This document shows, piece after piece, positions 50,618-56,178 of a DNA stretch of 64,000 nt; the stretch's first letter is position 1; each line of letters starts with the position of its first letter. Source of the stretch: a virus. Location of the stretch: positions 1-64,000 of the IMG/VR virus record IMGVR_UViG_3300035670_000014; one strand, 5' to 3'. The notes under the pieces are model-generated. The model did not search any database. It saw nothing but the letters and a program-made list of their open reading frames with translations, and was not told the origin of the DNA. The position numbers were made by a program, and so were the translations under genes.

Positions 50618-50953
50618 ATGCCATATCATTATCTAAATAATACAGATATATCTGGAGGAGGTGGTGGTGGAGGTACACTTGGTGTAGCCACTGTTTGGGC
50701 CACTGCTCCAACTATTACATTCCCGACTACCTCTCTAAGAGATGGAGATATATTCTCAGCAGACTCCTTAGGATTTACAGGATCAAGTGGAACTTTTAGA
50801 TATGACCTGGATGCTGGTATCTGGTTTCTTATATATGGAGTATTTGCAACAGAAGCAGATATGACTTCCTTTACTACTGATGTAGACAATGACATAGCAG
50901 AAGATGCAGTTCTAATTGTAAGTTCTGACCTATCAGGAGACTTAATCTCATGA
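50618..50953 (+). CDS. small polyglycine-linker protein preceding the tail fibre
   Basis: This encodes 111 residues. The ATG directly behind the previous stop is preferred; a TTG 21 bases upstream is possible but overlaps the preceding gene. Near the N-terminus a run of seven glycines follows a YHYLNNTDIS head, then come strands with FRYDLDAGIWFLIYG. It overlaps the fibre gene as ATGA. A glycine hinge and small beta-domain suggest a fibre collar or adaptor between baseplate and the next protein. The fibre gene also starts with a Gly-rich segment, supporting a joint role. Confidence 0.5.
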   Translation: MPYHYLNNTDISGGGGGGGTLGVATVWATAPTITFPTTSLRDGDIFSADSLGFTGSSGTFRYDLDAGIWFLIYGVFATEADMTSFTTDVDNDIAEDAVLIVSSDLSGDLIS

Positions 50954-53055
50954 GCTCTATTCCCTATATAAGAGAAGGTTCTTCTAATGTGAGAATGCCT
51001 AAAGACTATGGGTATGTATATGCTCAGGTTAATGACTGGGCTAGTCTAGAAGATTTAGTAGATCCCAAAGAAGGAGATATAGCTTACATCCAAGACCTTC
51101 CTACTGGAGGTGGAGGGGGGCTTGGTATGGTTTTGGGAGGCGAAGCAATCTATACTGGTGGTAGCTGGAAGTTAAGAAGAGCACAAGGACTTACAAAAGC
51201 TGCACTAGATGCATATCTTGATAGTGGAGAATATGGTTATGAGGCAATAGTTGGTTGCATAGGAGTTGTCCGTGTAACTCCATATGCTGATGCAAGTTCC
51301 AAATATTACTACTGGACTGGAAGCGAATGGCTACGTACTCCAGATGGAACTGGGTATATCCACCCTAGTGTTCCAAACTGGGATACTCTTCCTTCAGATA
51401 ATGTACAAGATGAGGATCAAGTTTTTGTTAACTCTCTTGATGATGTAGAAACTAGTAATGGAATTGCTAAGTGGTCCGAGTCAGATGAAGAATGGAAACT
51501 CCAAGAAGTAACTTATTCAGGTTGGAATCCATATACATTTAGTACTGCTTTTGCGGGCACTATTACAAATGGAGCCATTATTCGGACAGACGATGGGTCA
51601 TGGGAGGCGCCTCTTTATTTTTGGAATACTGTTGGATCTGACTGGATAAGGTCGCCTGAAAATGTTAACTATCTCTGGCCTCAAACTATTCCGGGTACTT
51701 GGGCTTCTCTTAATACAGATGGCAAGCTTAATGCGGATCGCATCTCAGTACCTAACTGGACTACAGGTGGCAGTGATGGCGTTGCACAATACGATGGCTC
51801 CGAGTGGAAGTTAGTAGAAGGTGTGGTTGATACCATTGCAAATCTTCTCGCCTTTACCGGGGAAAAAGAACCGGGAGCTAAAGTTACTGTAGGAACTGGT
51901 ATAGCAGCTGACCCTGTATATTTCTGGAGCGGCACTGGGTGGTTGCGAACTGCAGATCAGTCGCACTACATCTGGCCGCAGGTTAACAACTGGAGCGAGC
52001 TGACTACGCTACGACCTCATGCTATAAACAATGACGAAGTGCCTGTGCATACGCTTAACGTTTCTCAATCTAGCGGCACGGCGCAGTTGCATGGTGGTAC
52101 TTGGAAGCTAATTGAAGGAAAGTGGCCATCTGTAACTGACATGAACGACTGGGATGAAGGAGACATTCATTCGGGTGCAATAGCTTATGTGGACCCGACC
52201 CATCAGTATGATCAGGACTCAACTGTTTATTATTACACAGGTGGAGCTTGGGTTGCCACTCAGCCTGCTGGAGTTACAAAGGTTCACACCATTTCCTCCA
52301 TTTATGATTTTAGCGCGAGCGGTTTGGCCGATGGGGACTATGGCGTTCTGACTCCATCTGGCGGCTCTCCTATCGTGCTAAGGTACAAAGCGGCGTGTAC
52401 GATTGCGGCTGGCGGTACCCGTGCTGTCTGGATGACTCCTACTGCGTATGCTGGAAGTCCAGTTTTGCAAGCGTGGACCGACGGAACAGAAAACAATTCA
52501 ACCTTGGCCTCACAAGGGTGGACATTAGCTATTGGAACAGGCTGTACTCTTGGGCCAACTGGAGGCTATCAAAGAATGGCAACGCCCGGTTCTCAAGTTA
52601 GCGTATCGTTGGCTGCAATGTCCGGTGCGATAACATCGACCACAAAAGTAGAGTCGATTTATGAATGTAGAGGGTCAATTCCGGGAGGTTCAACTGTGCG
52701 ATCTAAACAGTTTTATCTTGCGGATGGAGTAAATGGCTATTCCATTGGTGACTCAGGCGCAGGCGGTTCCAATGGATATGGGTATCGACAAGCAGCTACT
52801 GGTGCGATTGTAAACACCCCTATTCGAGACGTTACAAGCGCAAGAATACCAGCGTTGGCGGCTACCCCATTTGTTTGTGTTGCCAGAGACGAAGGTAGAA
52901 CGGTTTTTGCATCTCTTTCAGTTAATGGAAATGCGTTTGCCGACTACCGAAGAAATCTTGGTAGTATCGCAGCCAGTATTTTTTATGTTTACATAACAGG
53001 CGATATTACTGCACCAATTACAATGGACTACCGAGGTCAGGTTCTCACCTATTAG
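50950..53055 (+). CDS. repeat-containing tail fibre with GC-rich distal half
   Basis: This encodes 701 residues. After a Gly-rich segment (about 54-64), four diverged repeats of about 101-103 residues follow, each with an aromatic Y-Y/F-W or Y-Y-Y turn, a T-G-x-x-W-(L/I/V)-R motif in the first three, and a W-(D/A/S)-x-L segment; the aromatic landmarks start near residues 119, 223, 324 and 427. The last 230 residues are a different Gly/Ser/Thr/Ala-rich beta domain, probably receptor-binding and lectin-like. Base composition rises sharply from about base 51,540, reaching 33-35 G+C per 60 bases against about 19-20 in neighbouring genes, so the distal part was probably acquired separately. It starts in an ATGA overlap. 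The fibre call is strong; the ligand is unknown. Confidence 0.75.
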   Translation: MSSIPYIREGSSNVRMPKDYGYVYAQVNDWASLEDLVDPKEGDIAYIQDLPTGGGGGLGMVLGGEAIYTGGSWKLRRAQGLTKAALDAYLDSGEYGYEAIVGCIGVVRVTPYADASSKYYYWTGSEWLRTPDGTGYIHPSVPNWDTLPSDNVQDEDQVFVNSLDDVETSNGIAKWSESDEEWKLQEVTYSGWNPYTFSTAFAGTITNGAIIRTDDGSWEAPLYFWNTVGSDWIRSPENVNYLWPQTIPGTWASLNTDGKLNADRISVPNWTTGGSDGVAQYDGSEWKLVEGVVDTIANLLAFTGEKEPGAKVTVGTGIAADPVYFWSGTGWLRTADQSHYIWPQVNNWSELTTLRPHAINNDEVPVHTLNVSQSSGTAQLHGGTWKLIEGKWPSVTDMNDWDEGDIHSGAIAYVDPTHQYDQDSTVYYYTGGAWVATQPAGVTKVHTISSIYDFSASGLADGDYGVLTPSGGSPIVLRYKAACTIAAGGTRAVWMTPTAYAGSPVLQAWTDGTENNSTLASQGWTLAIGTGCTLGPTGGYQRMATPGSQVSVSLAAMSGAITSTTKVESIYECRGSIPGGSTVRSKQFYLADGVNGYSIGDSGAGGSNGYGYRQAATGAIVNTPIRDVTSARIPALAATPFVCVARDEGRTVFASLSVNGNAFADYRRNLGSIAASIFYVYITGDITAPITMDYRGQVLTY
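51304..52251 (+). repeat. four tandem fibre repeats of about 101-103 codons
   Basis: Aromatic landmarks of equivalent position begin at 51,304, 51,616, 51,919 and 52,228. Using the fixed Trp (Tyr-equivalent in the last copy), the spacing is 309, 303 and 309 bases. The copies are diverged at DNA level, so this is protein-level repetition rather than a recent DNA duplication. They form the shaft between the N-terminal attachment region and the distal domain. Confidence 0.75.
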
Positions 53056-53062
53056 GACAAGT

Positions 53063-53299
53063 ATGCAGATTATAGCAAAGTATAGGCATCAGTTTTTAAA
53101 TGAATTAAAATCATACACAATTCATTTAGTAGATAACATTTGTACTTGTACCGAAGATGGCACTGAAGATGCGGTAGTTCTAAACTGGAATGGTGAATCA
53201 GTTTCTGGTAATTTGTCGGATGAAGTATTGAACGGGGTGTCAGCTTTAATTACAAAAACGATACAAGACGTAAGCGCAGCTGGATTATTATTAGTTTAA
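53063..53299 (+). CDS. small protein after the tail fibre, possible fibre chaperone
   Basis: This encodes 78 residues. A GGA ribosome-site core precedes the ATG. The protein has two strand-like segments, a CTCTEDGTED turn, and a helical C-terminus ending in LLLV. Base composition returns to AT-rich after the GC-rich fibre tail. Small genes directly downstream of fibre genes often code for fibre assembly chaperones (compare T4 gp38, Mu U); that is a positional inference. No family is recognised. Confidence 0.45.
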   Translation: MQIIAKYRHQFLNELKSYTIHLVDNICTCTEDGTEDAVVLNWNGESVSGNLSDEVLNGVSALITKTIQDVSAAGLLLV

Positions 53300-53328
53300 A
53301 AAACTCATATACATAATTAAGGAATATC

Positions 53329-53358
53329 ATGATCTATCTTGCTTTTAAAGCCGCCTAA
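53329..53358 (+). CDS. nine-residue mini-ORF (possible leader peptide)
   Basis: ATG to TAA encodes MIYLAFKAA, with an AAGGAAT ribosome site a few bases upstream. Its stop overlaps the start of the 54-residue gene as TAATG. It is too short to test by coding statistics. It may be a leader that sets translation of the next gene by coupling, or chance. Confidence 0.3.
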   Translation: MIYLAFKAA

Positions 53359-53522
53359 TGTCTGATAGACAGGAATACCGCTATCCCTATCCGATACTTC
53401 TATCAGACTTACAAAGGCACATAGAAGCAGCATCTAAAAAGTTAAAGATGCCAATTGATCTTCTTGAAATAGTTCCAAATGAAACCCACCTCGTCATAAG
53501 AGTAAGGGAATTAGTAAAATAA
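53358..53522 (+). CDS. 54-residue small protein between fibre genes
   Basis: Starting at the ATG in TAATG, this encodes 54 residues: a Tyr/Pro-rich head (YRYPYPILLSDL), an amphipathic basic helix, and a closing strand LVIRVRELV. It fills an otherwise open space of about 250 bases between the two larger genes. No ribosome site of its own is visible apart from that of the mini-ORF. I do not recognise it; the composition and ordered look make it a plausible real gene. Confidence 0.5.
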   Translation: MSDRQEYRYPYPILLSDLQRHIEAASKKLKMPIDLLEIVPNETHLVIRVRELVK

Positions 53523-53540
53523 ATTTAAATCAAACTTAAT

Positions 53541-53546
53541 GGAGAT
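53541..53546 (+). promoter_or_regulatory. ribosome binding site deciding the start of the beta-helix gene
   Basis: GGAGAT lies 4 bases before the ATG at 53,551. It overlaps the codons following the upstream ATG at 53,539, so translation more likely starts at the second ATG. Confidence 0.6.
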
Positions 53547-53550
53547 ATTA

Positions 53551-55341
53551 ATGAGTACAGATACTAGAGTTTCATTTGGTTCAATGGCAATATTAGTTGA
53601 AGCCGTCGAGAGTAATGCAGAGCTTAATGGGGTCCTTCCATTTAGCTTTACTGGAAATGAGATTGTAAATGTTGTATTGTTTAGCCGAAACTCTACAAGA
53701 GTTGTAACTCCGCTAAACGTAAGTACATTTAGAATGCTAAGTCAAACCTCAAAACTGTGTACTTCACTTGAGACAGTTAGAAATTCTAGATCGTCAAGCG
53801 AAGTTGGGAGATTCACTATAGCTGGAACTGGTAATCCAGTTACGGTATTTGGATTTCCTTATGAACTAATGCCAAAAGCAGGCGAGGTTACTTTTGGAAA
53901 TATATCTTCAGTAGGAATTAGCTCTAGAAGTTATCTACAAGAAAGATTTGATGAATCATCTGGAGAGTCTTTTGTTCCTATTATTATTAAGGCAGCAGAT
54001 TTCTCAGGAGTTGGTACTTTCAAAGTAGGCGACGTAGAATATCAAGTTGTAGGAGTCTGGGATTCCTTTCAAAACTTTACCTCGGGTAGCGAACTACCTC
54101 CTGATGAAGGAGGTGGAGGAGTTACCATCATTCCTAATGGTGGCACTCTAGAAGGCACCTACCAGGGAAGCGTAATATGTGAAGGTGAAGTAACAATAAC
54201 AGGTGGTTTACTTGTACAAGGATCACTTAATACTAAAGCTGGAAACTGCATAATAAATACTTTAAGTGAAGGTAATGACATTATAGTGCAAGGAGATTGG
54301 ATTTCCTCGCAAGTATTTAGTTATATGGGCGGAATTATAAGCAGTAACATTAGGATATATGGAGATTGGATATTTTCAAGTGTTAACCTAGTAAGAAATG
54401 AAGGATTTGTTTATGTACTTGGAGATCTAATTCAAGATATAGAAACCTATGGAGAATCAGAAGGTCAGTTCTATTTCTCTGTTTATACAGTAGACGGTGT
54501 AAATGGGGGTTTCATTGTGGTAGGTGGAGATTTAATAGTTCAACGATTTGAAGCAGTCGGAGGAGGACAAGATAAAGACTCAGGATCTGTGGGAAATGGA
54601 AGCTCCTTATTTGTAATGGGCAATATAAACTCTGAAACCATTCATTTATATGGTGGAAATATTACAAATGACGTAGAGGAAGTTTCTCTTCCTCAAGCAG
54701 GATCTGGCGGAGTTTTAGAGTGTGAAGGAAGTATAAACTGTGAAAATCTAGATCTATATGGTGGTAGTTGCTCTGTAATGGGACAGGGAGGAAATGGTGG
54801 GACTATACTATGCGGGGGACATTTAATTTCAAATTATATTAATTTAAATGGTGGTAATTCCTATGTAGAACAAGCAGGAACAGGCGGAATGGTAGAGGTA
54901 AATGGTTCAGCATCAGTGAAAAATACCATAAACCTAGCAGGAGGGGAGTCTTATGGAACAAATGAATATCCAGCAGGACCTGGAGGGTCATCTGGATCTT
55001 GCTATTTCTCTGGAGGTGGAAGCGTAGGGTATCTACAATTAACAGATGGAGGTGGAGTAGCTCCTACTGCGAATGCAGGGTTAGACTTCTCAGGAACCTT
55101 AAACGCTGGAACAATTGATCTCTCAATGAGATCAAATGTATATATAGTAGCAGAATCGGGATCAATTCTTAGAGTAAACTCTATGTCAGTAAAAGCAGCA
55201 CTCCATCATATTGTTGGTGATAACTATGTAGAATCTGGAGATATAAATGACTATACAATGGGCTCTATATTTTTATCAACAGGAAAGAATACAGAATGGA
55301 TGATCATACAAGGAGTTCCTGTTTCTAGCTTGTTCCCCTAA
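53551..55341 (+). CDS. glycine-rich beta-helix virion protein, probable adhesin/fibre
   Basis: This encodes 596 residues. The start is taken at the ATG after a GGAGAT ribosome site; an in-frame ATG four codons upstream has none. The first about 180 residues form a globular domain. From about 190 on there are regularly spaced short strands and G-G turns, about 40 residues per unit, such as GGTILCGGHLISNYINLNGG and GGMVEVNGSASVKNTINLAGG, the hallmark of a right-handed beta-helix; a polyglycine-like EGGGG hinge opens it. It has a resemblance to Gly-rich adhesin and bactofilin-like folds. No catalytic residues are seen. It sits after the fibre genes and before a glycosyltransferase-like gene, so a surface adhesin or decoration is likely. 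Confidence 0.6.
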   Translation: MSTDTRVSFGSMAILVEAVESNAELNGVLPFSFTGNEIVNVVLFSRNSTRVVTPLNVSTFRMLSQTSKLCTSLETVRNSRSSSEVGRFTIAGTGNPVTVFGFPYELMPKAGEVTFGNISSVGISSRSYLQERFDESSGESFVPIIIKAADFSGVGTFKVGDVEYQVVGVWDSFQNFTSGSELPPDEGGGGVTIIPNGGTLEGTYQGSVICEGEVTITGGLLVQGSLNTKAGNCIINTLSEGNDIIVQGDWISSQVFSYMGGIISSNIRIYGDWIFSSVNLVRNEGFVYVLGDLIQDIETYGESEGQFYFSVYTVDGVNGGFIVVGGDLIVQRFEAVGGGQDKDSGSVGNGSSLFVMGNINSETIHLYGGNITNDVEEVSLPQAGSGGVLECEGSINCENLDLYGGSCSVMGQGGNGGTILCGGHLISNYINLNGGNSYVEQAGTGGMVEVNGSASVKNTINLAGGESYGTNEYPAGPGGSSGSCYFSGGGSVGYLQLTDGGGVAPTANAGLDFSGTLNAGTIDLSMRSNVYIVAESGSILRVNSMSVKAALHHIVGDNYVESGDINDYTMGSIFLSTGKNTEWMIIQGVPVSSLFP

Positions 55342-55344
55342 TCT

Positions 55345-56178
55345 ATGATAGATAGAGCAGTACTTACATGGATAAGTAAATCTGAAGAGTGGTCAGCAAG
55401 TAGCTGGCCACATCCAGATATACACAAGTGGAGCTGGAAAGCTTCTCTTGAATTGCTTAAAAAGCAATTCAGTGAGGTTGTTCTTTATACGGATAGCTAT
55501 GGATCTAAGCTTTTTGAAGATTTTAATTTCAGCGATATTCTTGTTTCTTTTGATAGTAATTACCCCAAAGAACTATGGGGAATAGCTAAACTAGAAACTC
55601 AGGCACTTCAAGTAAAACCTTTTGTTCACGTAGATGGAGACTTCTACCTCTTTAACTTTCCAGATGAAGCAAGAAAGTCTAAAGTAGTAGTGCAATCTAA
55701 AGAATATAGAATTGGAAAAGATTATGACAATTCCTACAAGTTCCTAAGAAAGCATAATCTATGTGAACCTTTTATGTCTAATCTTCTTTATAATGCTGGA
55801 TTCATAGGTGGTAACGATGTAAGTAAGCTGCATCAGTACTCTACATATGGATGCAAAAATGCAAAAGAGGCATTAAAGCTATTAGATAAAAAACAAAAAG
55901 CTGAGATAAAGCATTTAAACTTTTACTTCGAGCAATGTGAAATTGTTAGATTTTCATCAGCTCCAGATACTCACTTCCTTGGAAATCCTCACCAGTTTCT
56001 TGGATCTAGCAACTATAGTCATTTTATTAATCATATAAGAAATGCAGAAGCACTAGTTTTTCATTTAAACTATCTAAAAGAAGTAGAAAGAAAGTCAGGT
56101 ATATACATAGAAGATGTGTGCTCGGATGAAGCAATAGAAAAAATGAGAAAAGAAATAAAAAAACATTCAATAAAATAA
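55345..56178 (+). CDS. glycosyltransferase-like protein (GT-A fold, DxD motif)
   Basis: This encodes 277 residues. The N-terminal half has WPHPDIHKWSWKASLELL, a strand-helix VVLYTD, and VHVDGDFYLF with D97-G98-D99, the metal and nucleotide-sugar binding DxD motif of GT-A glycosyltransferases, preceded by an LWGIAKLETQ helix. From memory this arrangement resembles the DUF6734 group of uncharacterised proteins. The second half has a Y-N-A-G-F-I-G-G strand and a basic C-terminus. No signal peptide is seen. It follows the beta-helix protein after 3 bases, so it could add sugars to a virion adhesin or to host surface polymer. The acceptor is unknown. Confidence 0.6.
   Translation: MIDRAVLTWISKSEEWSASSWPHPDIHKWSWKASLELLKKQFSEVVLYTDSYGSKLFEDFNFSDILVSFDSNYPKELWGIAKLETQALQVKPFVHVDGDFYLFNFPDEARKSKVVVQSKEYRIGKDYDNSYKFLRKHNLCEPFMSNLLYNAGFIGGNDVSKLHQYSTYGCKNAKEALKLLDKKQKAEIKHLNFYFEQCEIVRFSSAPDTHFLGNPHQFLGSSNYSHFINHIRNAEALVFHLNYLKEVERKSGIYIEDVCSDEAIEKMRKEIKKHSIK

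Follow-up and report, generated by a model that had tools for sequence, protein, structure and literature searches.

Tetart et al. reportedly described in J Mol Biol in 1998 how recombination between conserved motifs at the distal tail-fibre locus of T-even phages replaces the distal adhesin. The side-tail fibres of P2, lambda and T4 are likewise said, after Haggard-Ljungquist et al. in 1992, to be mosaics, with patchwork genes occurring among unrelated phages. Classical cases of fibre exchange in T-even phages and P2 are also cited in PMC6466182. In phage spikes, distal receptor-binding domains at the C-terminus are exchanged while the conserved N-terminal anchors are kept (PMC10408124), and distantly related Alteromonas phages have host-recognition modules in common in which the fibre moves together with a partner gene (PMC10579305).

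We analysed a stretch of 64,000 nt (the window), part of a virus record of 170,948 bp, which contains a fibre-like gene with an abrupt internal change in composition. As reported for the T-even case, recombination would have taken place within the fibre locus and the distal adhesin would have been replaced. The T-even parents and motifs are known, whereas we found no donor, no homology tract and no sequence relationship to T-even phages. The gene may also be a patchwork like the fibre genes of P2, lambda and T4, with the difference that the present fibre has no homologue among the known phages searched. As in modular receptor-binding proteins (PMC10408124), the anchor carries the signature of the lineage and the distal part another; that work rests on the comparison of homologues, the present case on composition only, which is indirect evidence. 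In the Alteromonas modules, fibre and partner gene are exchanged together (PMC10579305). Here a 78-aa ORF next to the fibre shares its CpG anomaly, but this ORF has no recognisable chaperone similarity.

The phage and its repeat-bearing gene

The two ends of the record share exactly 127 bases, as is usual in assemblies that close into a circle. Because the terminase is distant (29% to Moorella phage MTATph1) and a portal protein, a major head protein, a contractile tail sheath and a bacterial-type DNA polymerase III are encoded, the phage can be placed among the myoviruses, far from known phages. Judged by its sequence, the record appears to be a complete 171-kb myovirus, large, previously unseen and remote from known phages, with an overall GC content of 37%. 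A second, independent assembly contains 44,949 bases of the record (123,246-168,194) at 100% identity, and a 16-kb fragment of a cousin is 80-84% identical to it. In the cousin lineage, TerL is about 93% identical. Only two fragments of relatives were recovered by the TerL search, neither of which extends to the fibre locus, and a search via the neighbouring tail genes found none.

The features of the locus are as follows.

50,618-50,953, + strand: small ORF (ATG start, 111 aa) containing a poly-glycine run and an incomplete, degenerate repeat copy (U0); native composition (U1-U4 profile; CpG o/e 0.08)
50,935-50,939, + strand: AGGAG, 10 nt ahead of the ATG of the fibre ORF, for which it is the likely ribosome-binding site (read from the sequence)
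50,950-53,055, + strand: fibre-like gene, 701 aa, with a short N-terminus, four repeats and a distal domain (ORF)
51,004-51,348, + strand: repeat unit U1, native composition (HMM domain, 122 bits; alignment)
51,352-51,663, + strand: repeat unit U2, in or beside the second half of which the composition shifts (HMM domain, 114 bits; CpG change point 51,551)
51,551-53,300, + strand: compositionally foreign segment, with near-normal CpG throughout and excess fourfold G within the fibre gene (CpG segmentation; fourfold-site G)
51,667-51,963, + strand: repeat unit U3, of foreign composition and modelled as beta-rich (HMM domain, 121 bits; predicted structure; G at fourfold sites and GC excess)
51,967-52,269, + strand: repeat unit U4, foreign composition (HMM domain, 151 bits)
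52,276-53,052, + strand: distal domain (residues 443-701), CpG odds 0.98, presumably the tip that binds the receptor (composition)
53,063-53,299, + strand: small ORF, 78 aa, directly 3' of the fibre gene; CpG o/e 1.08, GC 0.34 (composition)

The 701-aa protein contains four divergent repeats of about 102 residues each (U1-U4), followed by a distal domain of 259 residues. Fourteen columns are invariant across the repeats, and their pairwise identity is 25-39%. At the DNA level the units are only 40-47% identical, so that no homology tract can be seen at the join. Unit U3 is predicted to be beta-rich with a short helix (pLDDT 83). An AlphaFold model of the distal domain, made without an alignment, had a pLDDT of 34 and was too poor to interpret. 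Neither an Rfam match nor a terminator was detected in the fibre region.

The sequence-only reading had treated the locus as one fibre gene. The repeat-bearing ORF is in fact one of an overlapping pair of ORFs, and the greater part of a fifth unit lies in the other (50,618-50,953). This unit, U0, is the sole other significant match (E = 0.0036) when the U1-U4 profile is run against the genome translated in all six frames. It lacks the last third of a repeat unit, and an alignment suggests that the fibre ORF supplies the missing third with its N-terminus, across the ATGA stop-start overlap of the two ORFs at 50,950-50,953. ATGA appears to split this repeat unit; possibly, an ancient frameshift has since been turned into translational coupling. 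The possibility that a -1 frameshift links the upstream ORF with the fibre was weighed and rejected. Inspection of the 25-nt overlap (50,929-50,953) revealed no slippery heptamer, and AGGAG precedes the ATG, which makes stop-start coupling more likely.

The 701-aa protein had no match in Pfam or PHROG at E ≤ 1 and no meaningful match in NCBIfam. Since no tail-fibre family was matched by sequence, we term the gene fibre-like and place it in no fibre family. The label 'fibre' is suggested by position and architecture. A sheath gene and a virion protein gene lie upstream and an endolysin-like gene downstream, so that the gene follows the baseplate and virion genes, precedes lysis and encodes modular beta-rich repeats. 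From the same architecture, the distal part is presumably receptor-binding. Foldseek with the repeat model returned nothing at E ≤ 0.001; among the weak matches (E 0.02-1) were tailspikes, several tail fibres and one tropism determinant, and the PDB matches, also weak, were to a fucose lectin. Between the fibre and the endolysin-like gene lie a 600-aa Gly-rich protein of unassigned family with beta-helix-like sequence (53,539-55,341) and then a DUF6734 protein (55,345-56,178; E 2e-28).

Change in composition within the gene

In 500-bp windows, GC was 0.35-0.38 upstream of the gene, 0.42 at 51,250, 0.47-0.51 at 51,500-52,750, and 0.36 from 53,000. GC is 0.41 over the initial 590 bases of the gene and 0.48 in 51,540-53,055; after the rise it lies at 0.48-0.52, and it drops again past the stop codon. 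For residues 198-701, the GC expected from the amino acids is raised by 0.059 and synonymous choice adds 0.048; hence, about 55% of the rise is due to amino-acid composition and about 45% to synonymous codon choice. The synonymous shift is best described by a segment covering residues 201-640, with a log-likelihood ratio (LLR) of 26.9, whereas 100 simulations based on native codon use gave no value above 9.0.

Among codon features, an excess of G at fourfold sites marks the foreign segment most specifically. The share of G there is about 0.17-0.18 in the distal fibre; in 330 windows from other genes, the GC-rich block of the genome being left out, it is 0.064 ± 0.022, with a maximum of 0.128. 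Back-translation of the distal part yielded a GC of 0.56 with the codons of the GC-rich block and of 0.435 with native codons, whereas 0.487 was observed; its codon use is thus intermediate between the two. The general dinucleotide distance first looked decisive as a marker and was then rejected, because back-translation controls indicated that the distance of the distal part is no more extreme than its protein sequence explains. CpG and fourfold-site tests were used in its place.

CpG odds in the tail, head and early regions are 0.31-0.43 (tail 0.31), which represents strong avoidance. With a value of 0.34 in the 80-84% identical cousin fragment, this avoidance is common to both phages and a trait of the lineage. 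Candidate causes of the avoidance, which shows as odds of about 0.3-0.4 in the record outside 117-147 kb, are restriction, methylation-linked mutation and others.

Along the fibre gene, CpG odds rise from 0.32 in U1-U2 to 0.69 in U3-U4 and 0.98 in the distal domain. Only six CpG occur in 50,618-51,550 where 37 were expected (o/e 0.16), while 51,551-53,055 has 75 against 87 expected (o/e 0.86). The other genes of 0-57 kb range from 0.09 to 0.65, the 78-aa ORF just downstream excepted. None of 1,332 native background windows reached the fibre value, and the nearest, at 81.5 kb, covers the gene of a D12 adenine methylase. Segmentation by CpG, conditioned on C content, placed the start of the anomalous segment at 51,551 (support 51,401-51,771), with an LLR of 28.1 against a permutation maximum of 8.5, and its end at 53,280-53,300 (support 53,260-54,600), past the fibre stop codon. 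CpG is a cleaner marker of the break than GC.

Several observations of the sequence-only reading were borne out. Its hand counts of G+C per 60 bases (35, 33, 28, 28 and 19) were exact at all five places. It had the rise begin inside the repeat region, and the CpG change point at 51,551 and the codon change at residue ~201 agree on this. The absence of any change in codon use, which would have spoken against it, was not seen. It also held that the rise ends at the stop codon; GC does drop there, but the CpG anomaly continues to about 53,280-53,300.

This continuation covers the 78-aa ORF, the CpG ratio of which is matched by 0.06% of native windows of equal length. The ORF had no family match. 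Possibly, it was carried along with the fibre tip, but its inclusion in the segment is tentative because seven CpG is a small number. Moreover, its normal CpG is combined with low GC, so that a single GC-rich donor cannot account for everything.

The fibre tip is not the sole compositional island of the genome. The region from 117,000 to 147,000 of the record mostly has high GC, reaching 0.5-0.67 (local maximum 0.67), and CpG mostly of 0.6-1.2; from 123,246 on it is confirmed by the identical second assembly. This block encodes low-complexity Gly-Tyr-Gly ORFs, an MYG1-like protein, an SSB and a 2,365-aa protein with DUF4326 and NADAR domains at its end. In the native part, near-normal CpG (0.87-0.96) was found at 81,798-82,823, 87,977-88,426 and 108,917-109,465, one of which is the D12 adenine methylase gene; these genes are likely further imports. 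The major head protein and its neighbour (165,742-168,443) have a GC of 0.47-0.48 and a CpG half-raised relative to other head genes, which perhaps reflects expression-linked codon choice.

Origin of the distal part

An abrupt change within one reading frame, repeats that stay in register and a strong lineage signature make distal acquisition the best explanation. We consider it probable that this is a tail-fibre-like adhesin gene whose distal part came from another virus or a prophage by recombination. U3, U4, the C-terminal domain and possibly the 78-aa ORF would have been acquired from a virus or prophage that was less AT-rich and did not avoid CpG. Since the units before and after the break are members of one repeat family, the join to the phage's own N-terminal part would be in register, within a series of related beta-rich repeats. 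The repeats may form a stalk, the shared fold of which would permit tips to be swapped while attachment to the virion is left intact. Since then, the acquired DNA may have drifted partway to the composition of the recipient (partial amelioration). Other CpG-normal spots that are plausible imports, namely the D12 adenine methylase gene and the 117-147 kb block, favour acquisition as well.

The donor itself could not be recognised, as the distal domain had no homologue in any set searched. Queries made from the complete fibre, from its repeat array and from the distal domain yielded no homologue in 50,697 phage records (protein mode, E up to 10). Scans of IMG/VR and GTDB genomes with exact short peptides, which detect close relatives only and miss distant ones, found none either. 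The repeat alignment was too little conserved for a pattern scan. The idea that the distal fibre came from another genome is well supported by codon use and lost CpG avoidance, with the break lying within the repeats, but the best matches in unrelated phages with which it had been linked did not appear at the sensitivity used.

The alternative with the best standing is that the distal fibre is native, its composition reflecting protein composition and the selection of codons for fast or accurate translation. The model would be the genes of capsid, sheath and tube, whose expression is presumably high. About half of the GC rise is indeed explained by the protein, which can also account for the general dinucleotide distance. 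Capsid-type genes reach a GC of 0.47-0.48, a synonymous excess of up to +0.076 and a CpG o/e of 0.65-0.67 without evident transfer. CpG o/e is 0.48 in the sheath gene and 0.65 in a tube-like gene, and capsid codon usage predicts the GC of the distal fibre almost exactly. However, the codons differ. Fourfold G is 0.17 in the fibre and 0.06 in the capsid-type genes (z about 7), despite their equal GC, which makes codon selection of the capsid kind a poor explanation. Furthermore, the onset is abrupt and mid-gene (residue ~201), with U1 and most of U2 fully native; the adjoining 78-aa ORF likewise has normal CpG; and fibres are low-copy proteins. We regard a native origin as unlikely.

Much less probable still is an assembly chimera, in which two phages or strains were joined within the fibre gene. 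The record is an IMG/VR contig, fibre genes are variable and may cause assemblers to switch strains, and the independent second assembly does not span the locus. Yet the reading frame and the repeat register are unbroken through the composition break, native composition resumes in the same gene run, and the 171-kb contig is self-closing (127-bp overlap), with 45 kb of it present and 100% identical in a further assembly.

Diversity-generating retroelements and invertible segments typically act on the distal ends of fibres, but the idea that one of them maintains variation in the distal part and thereby shapes its composition is largely refuted, as the record contains no reverse transcriptase, a template-repeat copy of the gene's 3' end is absent genome-wide, and no long inverted repeats surround the distal part.

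If the distal part was acquired, the exchanged unit might have been a cassette comprising the end of the repeat stalk, the adhesin tip and a small partner gene downstream, the divergent repeats serving as structural adaptor at the join, and in a CpG-avoiding lineage normal CpG might betray freshly exchanged genes; we offer this wider proposal tentatively, as one that may well prove wrong.

The fibre protein itself falls outside every known family searched (Pfam, PHROG, NCBIfam). Exchange of fibre tips is a well-known route by which phages change hosts, and the mosaicism proposed here is of a known kind. The locus would be a very clear instance of the known phage habit of borrowing fibre tips. 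What it adds is that lost CpG avoidance can serve as a sharp internal marker, which delimits the exchange without any homologue and carries the putative import past the stop codon, as far as a small gene that is a candidate partner.
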